Origin: Neoconidiobolus thromboides FSU 785
Lineage: Eukaryota; Entomophthoromycota; Entomophthoromycetes; Entomophthorales; Neoconidiobolaceae
DNA: 64,000 bases
Assembly (NCBI GenBank): GCA_025603075.1
Contig: MU626317.1
Span: 1-64,000, forward strand
Direction of reading: 5' to 3'
A model generated the notes under the pieces. It made no database searches. It saw only the letters and a program-made list of their open reading frames with translations, and was not told the DNA's origin. Of this stretch, positions 49,522-64,000 are shown in pieces (position 1 is the first letter of the stretch; each line of letters begins with the position of its first letter). Position numbers and translations under genes: made by a program.

Positions 49522-49927
49522 GAGGAGAGATCAAAAAGGATCATACATTTTTTATTGCATTTTTAAAAGTCATGTTATATTAATTAGATAATTAAAAACA
49601 ATCAATTATAAATGAAATGATTAAAGTTTAAAAATAAAATTTTGTTATATATTTATATATTTATATATTTATTTATTTATTTAGCATTATTGAATATTAT
49701 TTTTAATATTTATTAAATTTAAGCCACCTCCATTTTTAATAATCTTTTCGAAATTAAACAATCTCTATTAACCAATCAAATCTATTTTATACTTCTAAAT
49801 TTACCAATAAAATAAGATTACATCTCGAATTGTAAGAATTTTAAATCTTAAAAAATAGAAGTCAGCTTGACTAATTTGAATTCATTAAAATATAAAAATC
49901 GCTTTATTTTAACTAAAAACAATAGTG
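49522..49927. other. Intergenic upstream of the spermidine-synthase-like gene
   Basis: Includes an ATATATTTATATATTTATTT tract near 49645-49683; otherwise featureless. Confidence 0.6.
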
Positions 49928-51748
49928 ATGGCAATACGAGCACGTAACAAAAAAAAGAGTAATTTAGGAGACAGTGTCCATGACAGTACCAATGATTCTA
50001 TTGAAGTTAGTGAGCTTGATATAAGCAAAAAAGTGATTGTAGGTTGTCCAGGAGATGCTTTTTCCTTTATTGAATTATTATGTTTCACAATGATTTTACC
50101 TTTATTCACTACTTACATTGGTTCTTCGATTTATCTTTATTCACCAAAATTAATTGAACCATACCATGGCAATTTCTTTCCTTACTATTTTTATAACTTA
50201 AGTGTTGGTATAATAATATTATTAGGTATATTATTAGGTATAATTTATGAAGCTAAATTCTTATTTCATTTACCTGCTAATATTGGAAGAATTGGTTTAG
50301 CATTAGTTTTATCACCCATTTATACGGACTTAATAGCTAGACAATCTATGATTTTAGGGCCTTATTTAAGTGTTCAATTATCTTACTTATTACCAGTATA
50401 TATACCTTTATTATGTTGTTCATGGATTAATAGTAGTTTATTTTTAAAAAATTGTACTTTTTTTAAAAATGCAGATACTTTAAATCATTCTATTACTTTA
50501 TTTGTAATTCATATGGCTACTTTAATTATGGGATTAAGTTTATTAACTACATTTCCATTGATCTATTCATTTACTAATTTAACATGTTATGGTTTGTTAA
50601 TTAATGGTCTTATTTCAGCTTTGATTTTATATCTTCTCAATCTCACTTTACTTCAGAACTTAAGACCTACAACTTATGATAAAGTATTAGTACCAACAGT
50701 TATTATTTGTATTTTATTAGCTACAATATCAAGACATGCTCAATGTTCCAGTGGATTATCGGAAAAACATTTAGATATAAATAAACCAATGGTAAATGGA
50801 TTTATACCTTTAGCACGTACTGAGTCAATTACTGGATGGATTACAGTAGATGAAGAAAAAGCAAGAGAAATACGCGTATTACGTAGTGGTCATTCAATTA
50901 TTGGTGGTATTTATCCTAATTATCAAGAAAGTATATTTGGCACTTTTTATTATATGGAAACAATTAAATTTTTATTACCTTATAAATCTACAGAAGAAAG
51001 AGGTAATGTATTACAAATCGGATTAGGTATTGGTGTATCAGCAAAGGATTTAATTGAGGATGATTATAAAGTAGACATAATTGAAATTGATCCCATAGTT
51101 TATAATTACTCAAGAACTTATTTTGAATTACCAGAACCTAATAAAGTATATTTAGAAGATGGTAGAACAGTATTAGAAAATAAAATTAAAGGTTCCAGCT
51201 ATGATTTTATATTACATGATGTATTTACAGGTGGTACAGTACCCTCTACCTTATTTTCAATTGAAGCATTACAGTTATGTAAATACGCTATGAAACCAGA
51301 TGGTGTATTAGTACTCAATTTTGTTGGCGGTATTCTCGGTCCTTATAATATGGCTTTTGAAATGGTAGCTACTACATTAAGAGCTGTATTTCCTTATATG
51401 AGATTATTTACGGAAGATTTTAAAGATAATGAAGAAGAAGTAGTTTCTAATTTGATTAATTTAGTCTTCTTTGTTTCTGATAAACCAATTGAATTTGATT
51501 TACCACCTATTAGTCCAACCTATAGATCTATTAAAGAACATGCTATTACTCATATGGAAAAATATGAAGTTAAGTTGGAAAAATACTTACCTCAATTAAC
51601 TAAAGATTTGGAGTTAATTGATAAATATCATAGTATGGTAGTTACTGATAAAGATAACAAATTAAATCAAGTTCAACATCATTCAGCTTATGAACATTGG
51701 TATAAAATGAAAGAGTTATTTCCATTAGAATATTGGGTGAAATATTAA
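49928..51748 (+). CDS. Membrane-anchored spermidine-synthase-like protein
   Basis: Single exon, 606 codons from the ATG at 49928. Seven or eight hydrophobic segments fill roughly residues 40-280 (LCFTMILPLFTTYIGSSIYL, YNLSVGIIILLGILLGIIYE, TLFVIHMATLIMGLSLLTTF and others). The C-terminal half is a Rossmann-type methyltransferase/aminopropyltransferase domain: VLQIGLGIGVSAKDLI (SAM/dcSAM site), VDIIEIDPIVYNYS, YLEDGRTVL and YDFILHDVFTGGTVPSTLFS. The acidic IDP and DGR positions match spermidine synthases, while the true gatekeeper residues are unclear, so the substrate may differ. Fungal fusions of this kind exist and are uncharacterised. The 5' region up to 49522 is AT repeats. Confidence 0.75.
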   Translation: MAIRARNKKKSNLGDSVHDSTNDSIEVSELDISKKVIVGCPGDAFSFIELLCFTMILPLFTTYIGSSIYLYSPKLIEPYHGNFFPYYFYNLSVGIIILLGILLGIIYEAKFLFHLPANIGRIGLALVLSPIYTDLIARQSMILGPYLSVQLSYLLPVYIPLLCCSWINSSLFLKNCTFFKNADTLNHSITLFVIHMATLIMGLSLLTTFPLIYSFTNLTCYGLLINGLISALILYLLNLTLLQNLRPTTYDKVLVPTVIICILLATISRHAQCSSGLSEKHLDINKPMVNGFIPLARTESITGWITVDEEKAREIRVLRSGHSIIGGIYPNYQESIFGTFYYMETIKFLLPYKSTEERGNVLQIGLGIGVSAKDLIEDDYKVDIIEIDPIVYNYSRTYFELPEPNKVYLEDGRTVLENKIKGSSYDFILHDVFTGGTVPSTLFSIEALQLCKYAMKPDGVLVLNFVGGILGPYNMAFEMVATTLRAVFPYMRLFTEDFKDNEEEVVSNLINLVFFVSDKPIEFDLPPISPTYRSIKEHAITHMEKYEVKLEKYLPQLTKDLELIDKYHSMVVTDKDNKLNQVQHHSAYEHWYKMKELFPLEYWVKY

Positions 51749-51929: not shown

Positions 51930-53572
51930 ATGAACTATCAAGATAGTAGTACTTCCTCTGATGATGATAACAATTTCAAGATCAAACAATTAGAAAAAAG
52001 GGAATTGAAATTAATAAGTAGGATTAATGAAATAGAGGGTCGAATATTAAAAATTGAAACACAGAATGAAAAAAAGAGTGAAACTAAGGATATAGAATTA
52101 GATACTGAGGTGTCTTTGAATTATGGTAATTATTTTATATTAAAATTGAACTTAAATAAAAGAAAAAAGAAAAGAAGAAATAAAAGAAAATGTAGCAAAT
52201 AAACTATAACAATTAATTTTTATAGATGATATTGATTGGAAACAATATGAAGCACCTCAATGGTGTGTCCCAATTAAAGCTAATGTATTAGAATTCGAAT
52301 GGAAAGTAAGCAAACATTTCACTAGAAACTTTCAATTCATTTTATTAATTTGTTTTTATCAATTATTTTCATTTATTGAATTCTTAATTAGTTACTTTCT
52401 AATTACTGTAAATTTGATGTTATATTAATGGATCCACCTTGGCAATTAGCTACTCATGCACCTACTCGAGGGGTAAGAGTTTAACTAATTATTTTCATTA
52501 TAAAAAAGAAGACAAAAAAAATATAGTCGATTCTTTTAATTAACTAATTTACAAATATCTTAATTATTCTTCATTTAATTTGATTTCAAATTAAAAATAT
52601 CAAATTTACTTTTTTTAAAGGTAGCTATAGGATATCAACAATTACCAGATACATTAATAGAGTCTTTACCAATTAACGATTTACAAGATAATGGGTTTAT
52701 ATTTATTTGGGTTATTAATAATAAGTATGTTAAAGCATTTGAATTAATGAAACAATGGGGTTATGAGTAAGTTTTTAGTAATATAGAAATAATATATTAT
52801 AATAATATAAATAACAACATATTAATAATAAGCGACTAATAGTTTATTATTATGATTTTGTTTCAATCCAAATTATTCAATTCTTTCTATTATTTTGTTT
52901 GAATTTTAATATGAATTTTATTAGATATGTTGATGATATTACTTGGGTAAAACAAACAGTAAATCGTAGGATGGCCAAAGGTCATGGCTTTTATTTACAA
53001 CATGCAAAAGAAACTTGTTTAGTTGGAAAAAAGGTAAATAGAATAAAAATTATGAATATAGAATATGATTCTAATATCAAATTAATATATAACAACAATT
53101 TAATAACAAGTTATATAGAATCTATTCTATATGATAATGTGATGACGATATCGGATAATGATAATAATATTGATTCTATTTTAGGGAAAAGATCCACCAC
53201 AATGTAAACGGTTAATCGGTAGTGATGTGATTTATTCCGAAAGAAGGGGTCAAAGTCAAAAACCTATTCAACTATATGAAATGATTGAAGAATTAGTACC
53301 TAATGGTAAGTAATAATAACAAATAATAATAATACATTATTAATATAGGTTGATATATGGGGCTGTTTTTTTTGGTTTCATTATTTTTCCATTTTTTAAG
53401 CACTATTTGAGTGGAAAATTTGTTAGTAAAATTCTGAAATATATAAATACATCCCCATATATTGTTTTTATGATAATGTTAGATTAATTTGATTTTAGGT
53501 AAATATTTAGAAATCTTTGGAAGAAAAAATAATTTAAGAGATTATTGGGTTACTATTGGTAATGAACTTTAA
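51930..53572 (+). CDS. MT-A70 family adenine methyltransferase, MTA1-like (candidate DNA 6mA enzyme)
   Basis: Exons are 51930-52125, 52226-52305, 52392-52472, 52621-52766, 52925-53033, 53185-53305 and 53499-53572; phases agree and the product is 268 residues. The MT-A70 core starts at residue ~100 with FDVILMDPPWQLATHAPTRG and then VAIGYQQLPDTLIESLPIND, FIFIWVINNKYVKAFELMKQ, GYEYVDDITWVKQTVNRR, FYLQHAKETCLVGKKG, QKPIQLYEMIEELVP and LEIFGRKNN. The catalytic DPPW is intact. A TRG-x-x-IGY segment after it differs from METTL3/IME4 (which has a YGT there) and from METTL14 (which lacks DPPW). The combination fits MTA1, the enzyme reported in ciliates, green algae and basal fungi to methylate DNA adenine with a partner. 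Intron 6 is expanded by an inserted repeat element. Confidence 0.7.
53353..53461 (-). mobile_element. MITE copy 19, inside an intron
   Basis: Lies within intron 6 (53306-53498) of the MTA1-like methyltransferase gene. Begins ATATATGGGGCTG and ends ATACATCCCCATATA, both ends intact. Confidence 0.93.
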
Positions 53573-53678: not shown

Positions 53679-55811
53679 TTATAATTTAGCTTTAGTATTT
53701 TGAATACTAAATTCCCCTTTAAAATCTTTTTCATTATAAATTTCCCAATCTTGTGCAATTGGTGAAAGAATTAATCCATCAGGAATACCAAAACCTTCAA
53801 TATAAGTTAACGCTTGTTTAGATACAAGTTCCACTTGTTGATTTAAGAGACTAGATAATTGTCTAGCTTGATTTGGATGAATAAATTCATGACTCATTAA
53901 ATAAGTTAAATCCGATTCTAAAGTAGATAATATGTAGACTTTACATAACTCTTTTAAGGCAAGTCTGAATAAATTAAATTAGTATCTATAGCAACATAAC
54001 AAAATATTCCGATTTTACCTAGTTTCTTTAGATACACTTTGATCTTCAATAGTACGAATAAATTCTAATAAACTAAAGTATTCTCCATAAGCTTTAGATA
54101 AATTTTGAATTAAATCTGATTCTTCTTTCATCCAAATTTGGAAGATATCTTTACCCTCTTTTCTCTTTTGTACAGTGATTTCGCCAAGCTAATTTAAAAA
54201 AAATCAGTATTACTTCCATAACTCTTTTCTTATATTCAAAGAACTTACTTGTTTAGCTCTATTAGCAAATCTCAAATTCATAAAATCGACCAAATCTTCC
54301 AATTTATCTACTTTCCAATTTTGTGGATTGGATTTATTATTAAACGGAGTAAATTGGAATTTCTTTTGTTTAATATCTTCAATCAATTCTTTAGCTGTCT
54401 TTTGCATTAAAACTGCATTATCACCTTCCGCAGTGATACCAGCATGAGAAAATCCAATAATGGATGCAAATGTAGAATGTTGTAAATAACCTTGACCACC
54501 ACATCTTTCTCTACAAATAGAACCACAGCGTTCTGCATTCCAAGTCACTAAAGGTTTAATAGCACAACATAAGCGTATGATCTCGGAATAAGGACGTCCT
54601 TCTGGCTTAACCCATACTTTTTTAGCATGATTTAAACCAAATTGTAATGCATATGTACGGGCTAATAATGGAATTAAAGCTTTTTGTTGAAGTTGAAATT
54701 CAAGGATTGGGGTATCTGATTTTCCTGAACGACCAGCAGCCAAACGGGTAGCAGCATAACGTAATGCAATAGTTAAAGCCAATTTAGCACCCGAAGAATT
54801 CATAGAAGCAATACATAGACGACCAGTTAAAAGTTGATCAGCTACTTTAATAAATCGATTTCTACGACCTGCAATTTCCGAAGTATAAATACCATCAGCA
54901 GAAACATCGGAATATTTATTTAATAAATTAATTCTTGGTATACGAACATGATCAAATTTTAATAAAGCATTATCTACTCCATCTAAATCTAATTTATTAC
55001 CCATTTCACGAATAGTTACTCCAGGACAAACTTCATTATTGGGACCATCTCTAATTTTGACAATAAAGCAATGAATCCCTTCTTGTTTTCCTTTAACTTC
55101 AAGTTGAGCAAATACAATGGCATATTTAGCATGTTTAGCCCCATTAGTAATCCAAAATTTTTGACTTTTAGTGGAGGGACTATGAATTATAAATTCTTGT
55201 GTTTTTTCATCGTAAACTGAGGTAGTTTCCATTTCAATAGCATTATTACCATACCCTAATTCAGTTAATGCAAAACATCCAGTCGCATCCATATTGTTCA
55301 CTTCTTTTAATATATCAGCATGACGTTCAGTACCTAATTTTACTAAGGTGCCACCAAACTAAAAAAAGTTTAAATATTATAAAAGATAAAATAAAGTATA
55401 TAAAGCTTACAAGATTATAATGAACGGTAAGTTTAGTAGTTGAAGAACCGTTAACTAAACCAGCGGTTTCATGAACTAAAATCAAAGATTGATTAATCAA
55501 ATTAATCATTTATCACAATTAGTTAACTTACTAGCTAATACATTCAATGGATTTTCGATAAAATCAGTCACTTTAATAAATTTATTTTTACCAATTGCTT
55601 TTAATTGTTCAAAAGCTTGTTCCTGTTTTTCATGTTGTAAGCAATTGAATTTAGGAGCAAACAAATGAATATTTTCTTGCATAAAAGCTTTTAATCGTAG
55701 TCGATTTTCACGGTTATCAAAATCTAAAATTTCATTGATTTCTTGGGCATTGAAGCCAGCAGCATCAAATCGTGGTCGATTGTTGATAAAAGCAGATGAG
55801 GACGGATACAT
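53679..55811 (-). CDS. Peroxisomal acyl-CoA oxidase
   Basis: First step of peroxisomal beta-oxidation: FAD-dependent oxidation of acyl-CoA to trans-2-enoyl-CoA, giving H2O2. Exons are 55811-55532, 55475-55411, 55358-54249, 54188-54019 and 53964-53679, about 636 residues. Landmarks: [41 protein letters not shown] (FAD/substrate region), [40 protein letters not shown], the Arg/Gly-rich [14 protein letters not shown]-type stretch, and [18 protein letters not shown]. The C-terminal tripeptide is AKL (TKAKL), a peroxisomal PTS1 signal. The size is near the usual 640-700. It is convergent with the MTA1-like gene, with about 105 bp between stops. Confidence 0.93.
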
Positions 55812-61305: not shown

Positions 61306-64000
61306 CTAACTAAGCATATCTTCTCTATCAACCACATTATTATTCATATTACTTCCATCTTCCAATTGTGAAAAGTTCAAGTAATGAGCAGGTCTATGAC
61401 GTTCGTCATAAAATGGTAAAGGTACTTCTAAGCTAAGATGATATTCCTTATCAGGCTGATGAGAAGCACCCTGGAAATTATAATTCCAAATTGAATCAAC
61501 AGGTGAAAGGAAAAATCCGAAAAACTTGTCTGAAAGTAACATTTGAATACGCTCATAATGGGTTGGTAAGTATCCTGCTGGGTTAGTACCGCTTAGATCT
61601 TTGTTGGATGCTCCCCACTCATTACCTGATGGCGTTACTTTGTAACAAGTGAGTGAACAAGAACCTGGCGTAAATGCACAGGTAATAATTACTGAAGTAT
61701 CGATATCCCAACCTGGATAAGAGCCAAGTAATTTAGCATGTGTAGTAACGTCTTGTGGTGAAAGATGGGGTAGCTCATTTGGTAGAGTATGGATCCAGCC
61801 TAAAGGTTCAAGGTCATTCAGCTGCTCATGTTCTGGTGGATTATTTGGAAGATGCACCATTTGGTGAGTACCCCATTGAGGCACCATAACTATGGAACGG
61901 ATCTCTTTAACTTGTGGATTATCTTTTGGCGAAACACCATACAAAAATCCTGAAATTTGAGTTCGAAGATCAGAAATTATAATAAAACGCTTAAGTAAGT
62001 TTTTAGGCAACACATAAGTATACCCTGAATCCTTTAGATCATCACTAGCAACAAAGATGTGTTGGGTTCTCAATTGGAGATTGGTAGATGAAATAGCTCT
62101 TACTCTCCAATCTGTTTTAGAAGAAAAGGTTTGAGTTTCATACCCAGTTGTGGTAGTAGTAATAATTTCGTCTCCATGAATATTATGAGTTTTAGTGGTC
62201 ACTGCCGTCAGTTGGCTTTGTTCTTTAGCTTGCTTTTCGATTTCAGCAATTTGTTGACGTTGAAGCGAAGGAGCTGAAATTTCCATACCAAGGATAATAT
62301 CACGGATTTCAGGTTGAGTCAAAGAAGCAACGTTAACATTATTCTTTTTACCATAGTCTGCAAGGATAAGATCTTTTAAGGCAACCTCCACCTTAATCCA
62401 TTCATCATCTGGTAAAGTGGGCCAGATATGATGTGCTTCAGTGATTGTATTCTTATCAGGACGAAGAATCATTTTAGTCTTATCATTATTCACATGAAGT
62501 GCTCTTAAAATCAAAATCAAACGGAAGAAAGCAGTATATGAGGAAATCGTCGTTAGGAAATTATCATAAAGATTAAACAGACACATCATTGGCTCATTCG
62601 CTTTAAGGATAAGATCTCCAAACTTCTCTACTTTAAGACAAGCTTGGAAAGGTAATTGTAACTCAGAACCTTTGATCACAATATTGGGGAAATCTAAAAG
62701 ATGAACCTCAAGTGGATCCAACATACCCTTACGAGTAACAATGATTTGTCTTGGTTGTTCTTCCACTGGAAGTGAACGAATAAGAGCAGCTACTTCTTCA
62801 GCAGTCTTCCACTTGGCTAATTGGCCAAGACGTTTTTGTCCAGCCCATACCGAAGTATGAATAATCTTAAGGAAGAGATCACCATTACGTGGGTTGAAAA
62901 TAAAGATAGCACCATTGATAGGTTTTGTGGTTAAATTACCTTCAAATGTCTTATGGATGGTAACGCGATAAACATTAGTATCATCCACAAACCAAATAAT
63001 TTGATTTGAGAATAATTCACCGTAATTTGTTGAGTTAAGGTATGGTTCGGTTGGTTCAGATGAATACAATTGCACACCTTTACGAATACGTTCACGGAGT
63101 ACATAGAGAGCAGGATTAGCTTTAATAATCTTACCCATGGCTTGCTGTGTAAGTGGCTTAAGCCCAGGGAACCAATTACCATAAGCAGAATAGAGATTGT
63201 AAGCAAGATCAACACCAATCATCATACCAGTAGGTGAAGGATAGATACTCATATTATCTGTAGTATAATCTAAGAACTTGGCACGAGTGTAACGTTCAAC
63301 ATCATGAGAGTCAAAGTCACCCCAGCGTAATTGGATATCAATCCAGAATTTTTGAATAGTACCATTATCCATTGAATCTTTATTATCATTCAAAAGGGAA
63401 GGTCTGGATACACCCCATTTATAACTAGCAAACAAGAGAATATCCGCACATGAACTGTTCATTTTATAACTTTTACGTGGATGGATCGTTTCTTTTTGTA
63501 CTGACTCAATTTGCAAGGCTTCGGATTCTTGGTCAAACACTTGCACCATATCCATCACCAATGCTTCGTGGATTTTTTGCCACAAATGTGCACGGAAAAT
63601 TTGAATCAAGGAAATTTTAAGTGTTGGGATTTTACCATGCATAAAAATACCTGTTAAATCAAGTTGTACTTGGAAACCAACATACACATTTGAATTGTGG
63701 ACAACGGCATTATTACCAAGTAAAAAGAGCTTGTCGGAATCCTCGTCTAAAGTTATACCACAATATTGGCCTAGAGTTCCAGCTGTTTTAACAACATTAA
63801 ATCTATATTCAACTGGTAAATATTGAACAGCGATTGGGGCCTCCCTGCGTTTGCGATCAATTGATGAGAGACTGAGTACTTTAGTTAAAGCACTGCAAGG
63901 CACAAACGTTACGCAGGACTTAAAGCCATTATTAGTTTCATGATTTGAAACAGAATATTTGATACCAAGGGAGCGAGCTAAAGCTAAGGCACCAGTAACA
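61306..64000 (-). CDS. PRP8: PRP8 spliceosomal core protein, C-terminal part (partial, intein-bearing)
   Basis: Largest and most conserved spliceosome protein; the 3' end is at 61306 and the coding sequence continues past the window end. The extein from 63693 down codes for about 795 residues: [80 protein letters not shown], the RNase-H-like and Jab1/MPN domains, and a terminal HRPAHYLNF then DREDMLS before TAG. It matches human PRPF8 nearly residue for residue in long blocks. No introns appear in this stretch. The upstream 307 bp belong to an intein (own entry). The first extein residue is Ser where most eukaryotes have Ala (TINR-ANVYVGF), the nucleophile splicing needs. Confidence 0.97.
63694..64000 (-). 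other. C-terminal part of a PRP8 intein (protein intron)
   Basis: In frame with PRP8 and directly before extein Ser. Read from the window edge: [15 protein letters not shown], the segment that follows the second LAGLIDADG motif of homing endonucleases; then about 50 residues ending [20 protein letters not shown] and NNAVVHN, which are intein blocks F (YYGITLxxDxDxxFLL in the yeast VMA intein) and G (VVHN). The penultimate His and terminal Asn needed for Asn cyclisation are present, and the +1 residue is Ser. About 102 intein residues are visible; the N-terminal splicing block and first endonuclease half lie outside the window. The intein therefore is probably a full one with an endonuclease, not a mini-intein. 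Confidence 0.88.

Follow-up and report, generated by a model that had tools for sequence, protein, structure and literature searches.

A seven-exon gene of Neoconidiobolus thromboides that very probably encodes MTA1, the catalytic subunit of a DNA N6-adenine methyltransferase complex

Results

The window analyzed here is a stretch of 64,000 nucleotides from the fungus Neoconidiobolus thromboides FSU 785 (contig MU626317.1, positions 1 to 64,000), and an intact gene of seven exons occupies exactly its positions 51930-53572 on the forward strand. Six GT-AG introns, each 86-193 bp long, lie between the exons, whose joined coding sequence, 807 bases including the stop codon TAA, stays in frame and specifies a protein of 268 residues. 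The Pfam family MT-A70 matched this protein over the full profile at residues 100-267 (6.1e-38; 130.9 bits, the cut-off being 23.9), which excludes a chance match, and the DPPW motif is intact at residues 106-109, followed by THAPTRGVAIGYQQL. An earlier note on this DNA, made from its letters alone, had described a 268-residue MT-A70 methyltransferase at this place with the same motif and the same segment after it; the gene model and the Pfam match confirmed that description. The exons are as follows.

51930-52125, forward strand: exon 1, with the start codon and the N-terminal region, whose predicted amphipathic helix (about residues 17-43) is proposed to correspond to the MTA1 Helical domain
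52226-52305, forward strand: exon 2, DIDWKQYEAPQWCVPIKANVLEFEWK, a conserved stretch leading into the methyltransferase domain
52392-52472, forward strand: exon 3, FDVILMDPPWQLATHAPTRG, catalytic DPPW motif; the MT-A70 match begins at residue 100
52621-52766, forward strand: exon 4, MT-A70 domain (VAIGYQQL ... WGY)
52925-53033, forward strand: exon 5, MT-A70 domain (VDDITWVKQTVNRRMAKGHGFYLQHAKETCLVGKK)
53185-53305, forward strand: exon 6, MT-A70 domain (SDVIYSERRGQSQKP ...)
53499-53572, forward strand: exon 7, YLEIFGRKNNLRDYWVTIGNEL and the stop codon; loops binding S-adenosylmethionine (SAM) (RKNN, NEL)

A search of the Protein Data Bank (PDB) with the window protein, in which chains were identified by their structure titles, returned the chains of Tetrahymena MTA1 as best matches (5e-71, 242 bits). 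METTL3 was the next-best solved relative (1.1e-33, 120 bits), and lower scores were obtained for METTL14 (58 bits), the METTL4 relative 7cv6 (26 bits) and MTA9 (24 bits). The window protein is identical to Tetrahymena MTA1 at 110 of 193 aligned residues and to human METTL3 at 73 of 181; across the 179 columns of an alignment of all three proteins it agreed with MTA1 and not METTL3 in 46, and with METTL3 and not MTA1 in 15. The top database protein was that of Entomophthora muscae (P0001; 70% identical across 98% of the query), and among the best 120 of 897 database relatives, those with organism names read as early-diverging fungi.

These scores and diagnostic columns, together with the partner genes described below, led us to assign the gene to the MTA1 family, an assignment with which the trees agree but which they do not settle alone. 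We consider it very probable that the gene is MTA1 (also called AMT1), the catalytic subunit of the DNA N6-adenine methyltransferase complex MTA1c, which would pair with MTA9 and p1 and methylate the adenine of ApT. The MTA1-like candidate put forward in the earlier note is therefore supported.

The public gene model for this locus is shorter. The NCBI protein P0081 (Neoconidiobolus thromboides FSU 785, 164 residues) is 100% identical to residues 105-268, covering 61% of the query; it starts at the ATG of MDPPW within exon 3 and leaves out the first two exons and the beginning of the third (window 51930-52427), so that the first 104 residues are absent from it. The same lead-in (DIDWKQYEAP-WC-PIKANVL) and a similar helix-like N-terminal stretch are found in E. 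muscae P0001, and this conservation supports the 104 residues in question. Since P0081 begins at the catalytic motif, it is without the N-terminal helix through which p1 would be held; our model includes this predicted helix.

In Tetrahymena, as described in the sections of PMC9174199 on MTA1 structure, a Helical domain distinguishes MTA1 and grips p1 through a leucine-zipper-like face. Residues 17-43 of the window protein are predicted to form an amphipathic helix (moment up to 0.62), within which L21 and E25 are invariant across 16 aligned sequences, and the structure predicted for the E. muscae protein has a helix at residues 25-59 with a local predicted local distance difference test (pLDDT) score of about 95, in a model that is weak as a whole (mean pLDDT 66.4, predicted template modelling score 0.57, 28 sequences). 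We propose, from these sequence features, that the exon 1 helix is the counterpart of the Helical domain. The view that the protein has little beyond its catalytic domain thus holds as to its compactness, but not as to this N-terminal helix, which is kept in its relatives. When the same weak model was searched with Foldseek, Tetrahymena MTA1 chains took ranks 1-18, ahead of the first METTL3, a result of little weight as many of the matches had root mean square deviations of 5.6-19 Angstrom.

The partners of MTA1 were sought in the 23.1 Mb assembly. A genome-wide profile search with PF05063 gave three matches on two contigs; it did not match the window gene itself, which the protein-level search did match, probably because the exons are short. 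The MTA9 search suggested in the earlier note succeeded: C204:20351-21962 encodes an MTA9 homologue in which DPPL replaces DPPW. Its best PDB matches were Tetrahymena 8xyl_B, annotated as 'Methyltransferase MT, putative' and which, from our reading of the structure titles, is MTA9-B, and the Paramecium MTA9 7f4s_D. It falls within the MTA9 branch of the tree (99/98), nearest to Massospora and Entomophthora, and the database record P0121 is the MTA9 of N. thromboides FSU 785. On another contig, C236, lies the gene of a METTL4 relative; among solved structures it matched 7cv6 best (68.9 bits).

A p1 homologue of eight exons and 266 residues lies at C23:97923-96737 on the reverse strand. Its residues 18-159 match the p1 of Tetrahymena MTA1c (1e-36, 130 bits), and in the reverse search with Tetrahymena p1 this gene came first (1.4e-14), the next match being at 0.055. 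The search had begun with 34 Myb-like PF00249 matches (30 as loci), from which five loci (L036, L038, L039, L041 and L043) were examined closely; it was L036, on C23, that yielded p1. What is directly shown is the gene itself, the family to which it belongs and the presence of MTA9 and p1 in the same genome. The earlier note had expected an MTA9-like protein and p1/p2 elsewhere; the first two are present, and p2 was not found with the weak query described below.

L039, on C353, was ruled out as p1 because it is a relative of ZZZ3 with Myb and ZZ domains. This fungal protein combines an N-terminal helix-like stretch with Myb and ZZ domains and matches animal ZZZ3; besides the record of this strain itself, six more matched it at E <= 0.001, five of the six with names that we read as those of bivalve molluscs. 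As for the remaining candidates, L041 is presumably a Bdp1-like protein and L043 presumably a trihelix protein.

Phylogenetic trees were built from hand-picked rows, comprising 14 of the 120 listed MTA1 relatives and 12 (34-row tree) or 6 (24-row tree) of 120 MTA9 relatives; human METTL3 was the only METTL3 row, the 24-row tree was without METTL14 and METTL4, and the METTL4, METTL14 and METTL3 rows and the MTA9-B pieces formed long branches. One further row, P0208, we take from its EukProt code to be Creolimax. In the 34-row tree the window protein was sister to E. muscae with support of 100/97 and had an end branch of 0.18 changes per column; the MTA9 rows formed a separate supported branch (99/98), as did the two METTL4 rows, 7cv6 and the C236 protein (99/95), both of them long. 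In the 24-row tree the pairing of the window protein with human METTL3 was rejected by the approximately unbiased test (p-AU 0.0066).

The residues that contact SAM could be compared one by one, as the structural account in PMC9174199 names eleven of them for Tetrahymena MTA1, along with its partner contacts. Ten of the eleven are identical in the window protein (V183, D209, K334, E353, F355, R357, N359, N360, N370 and E371, in Tetrahymena numbering).

Discussion

Several observations weigh against the identification of the window gene as MTA1. At the eleventh SAM contact, D182, the window protein has N, as do 111 of the 120 relatives listed, 8 others having D, and replacement of D182 by alanine abolishes the activity of Tetrahymena MTA1, according to the mutational data given in PMC9174199. 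In the 34-row tree the MTA1 rows were gathered on one side of a branch supported at only 47/47, METTL3 being represented by a single row. The best 24-row tree placed that long METTL3 row inside an open MTA1 fork, so that MTA1 did not occupy one side of a branch, and here neither MTA1 as a single clade (p 0.457) nor a grouping of fungal MTA1 with METTL3 to the exclusion of Tetrahymena (p 0.38) was rejected. The MT-A70 tree suggested in the earlier note accordingly spoke against the METTL3 pairing and, with one METTL3 row, did not separate MTA1 from METTL3. Finally, an 84-residue stretch of Tetrahymena p2 gave no match in the genome at E values up to 10, the query being weak and without a positive control.

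That the window gene might be METTL3/IME4, and thus the N6-methyladenosine (m6A) writer for mRNA in N. thromboides, is suggested by the MT-A70 family and DPPW motif common to both, by the rank of METTL3 directly after MTA1 among solved relatives and by the UniRef label 'mRNA m(6)A methyltransferase' on many of the listed relatives. Moreover, a human METTL3 query of the genome matched nothing but a single exon in each of the window and MTA9 genes, revealing no separate METTL3. We nevertheless regard this explanation as highly improbable. The score for METTL3 is half that for MTA1 and the pairing with it was rejected; the window protein carries the MTA1-type stretches RGVAI, WVKQTVN...AKGHGFYLQHAKE and SERRGQSQKP and not those of METTL3; and its first cysteine does not occur before residue 79, so it is without the CCCH zinc fingers of METTL3. 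Besides, p1 is present in the genome, and the distribution analysis in PMC12695648 describes p1 as occurring only with AMT1, while the METTL14 partner that METTL3 would call for was not matched by the human METTL14 query, which was without a positive control. As no separate METTL3 or METTL14 was found, although MTA1, MTA9 and a METTL4 relative are present, N. thromboides may have lost its mRNA m6A writer.

A METTL4/DAMT-1-type enzyme would likewise have the MT-A70 fold and DPPW, but 7cv6 ('Methyltransferase-like protein 2'), which we take to be Arabidopsis METTL4, scored poorly against the window protein, and the distinct METTL4 relative on C236 falls in the METTL4 branch, whose rows are long; the chance that the window gene is of this type is negligible. 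It is also improbable, although less so than the two identities just discussed, that the gene is an MTA1 orthologue whose DNA-methylating role was lost, or whose expression is too low to matter, in a lineage with little N6-methyladenine (6mA). The N at D182 could be taken as a sign of such a loss; on the other hand, the reading frame, the splice sites and the other SAM contacts are intact, MTA9 and p1 have both been retained, and the end branch is short.

With MTA1 as the identity that we favor, the following mechanism can be proposed. MTA1 would supply catalysis and most likely use its MT-A70 domain to pair with MTA9 (C204), a catalytically degenerate protein that would serve as structural partner. 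The N-terminal helix of MTA1 would bind p1 (C23), the Myb-like subunit that contacts DNA, and its conserved contact residues would hold SAM. The MTA1-MTA9-p1 complex would then methylate the adenine of ApT, probably symmetrically and close to the 5' ends of active genes, as is reported for other organisms that have this enzyme. Assembly of the complex, its DNA substrate, its ApT specificity and the genomic distribution of the mark are predicted here by analogy with relatives, and it is the precedent of ciliates and Mucor that led us to propose 6mA at ApT as the product. In Mucor, every symmetric 6mA site disappears when either mta1 or p1 is deleted, and a p2 homologue was looked for without success, as stated in the sections of PMC11258239 on this complex. 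Across eukaryotes, the distribution of AMT1 tracks that of AMT6/7, and p1 and p2 are found only alongside AMT1, in the survey part of PMC12695648.

If p2 is absent, the question arises of how a fungal MTA1 would bind SAM. In the account of the Tetrahymena complex in PMC9174199, MTA1 requires p2 for SAM binding, as p2 opens the SAM pocket; the side chains of MTA1 that touch p2 are D174, Q195, H198 and R358, the R358A substitution abolishes SAM binding, and S176, P178, C180 and L372 contact p2 through the main chain. In the window protein D174 is replaced by Q, Q195 by C and R358 by K, and H198 falls within a deletion. Among the best 120 relatives listed, R358 is K in all 120, and D174 is D in 4 and E in 97; after clustering at 80% identity, the 49 remaining relatives all have K at R358 and the deletion at H198, and none has Q at Q195. 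These rows represent one lineage rather than independent events, and the row of P0081 is without the positions before DPPW. At the main-chain positions there is no change in P178 and L372, 35 of the 120 retain S at S176, and 118 have K or R at C180; these positions are less informative because the contact is made through the main chain.

With the p2 side-chain contacts changed and nine of the ten side-chain SAM contacts kept, the fungal MTA1 could have become independent of the p2 activator. We hold this, on the residues compared, to be possible but rather doubtful, as the replacements of R by K and of D by E are mild, the main-chain contacts P178 and L372 have not changed, part of the relatives retain S176 and all of them belong to one lineage. 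If it were true, an MTA1-MTA9-p1 enzyme binding SAM alone would represent a simplified form of MTA1c, and the mode of SAM binding by a fungal MTA1c in which p2 is absent is a question that can be checked.

Compared with known systems, the window protein resembles Tetrahymena thermophila MTA1 (AMT1; PDB 7f4l, 7yi8 and 8xyl) in the DPPW motif, in ten of the eleven named SAM contacts and in a predicted helix before the methyltransferase domain; the Tetrahymena protein is longer, with 372-378 residues in its full-length PDB chains, and differs at D182 and at the four p2 side-chain positions given above. The Mta1 of E. muscae and of other early-diverging fungi is similar in length, N-terminal helix and lead-in, with no notable difference beyond divergence. 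Human METTL3 has the MT-A70 fold and DPPW in common with the window protein but, unlike it, bears CCCH zinc fingers. The Mta1c of Mucor lusitanicus and Rhizopus microsporus consists of the same trio of Mta1, Mta9 and P1 as found in N. thromboides, p2 being unreported in Mucor and not matched here with the weak query. Mucor also has metB, according to the gene content given in PMC11258239, whereas the MetB family PF02384 had no match in six frames of the N. thromboides genome, in a search that did give matches in 13 of the 14 genomes used as controls, the 13 named being bacteria and archaea.

Since MTA1c in early-diverging fungi is already published and reviewed, as the relevant parts of PMC11258239, PMC12695648 and PMC13297926 attest, the MTA1 gene of N. 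thromboides is in itself expected. A literature search on the species, judged by paper titles, found no printed account of 6mA or MTA1c in Neoconidiobolus/Conidiobolus thromboides. Our results extend the MTA1-MTA9-p1 set to an entomophthoralean fungus.

The genes adjoining MTA1 look unrelated to DNA methylation: upstream lies a frame at 49925-51748 (+) that we take to be spermidine-synthase-like, and downstream a frame at 54210-55301 (-) that is presumably acyl-CoA-oxidase-like.

At the end of the window lies the PRP8 gene, which runs from 61306-64000 (-) onward along the same contig (stretch C60:61000-70500) as a single open frame at least 3064 residues long. Judged by eye from Hint-type starts and HN-C/S ends, the frame appears to carry four inteins. 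One literature search combining Prp8 inteins with Conidiobolus found no paper. Pfam recognized Hom_end_hint in three stretches of the frame and a homing endonuclease in two. The C-terminal part of the last intein lies inside the window, where it ends in ...NAVVHN and is followed by SNVYVGFQ.
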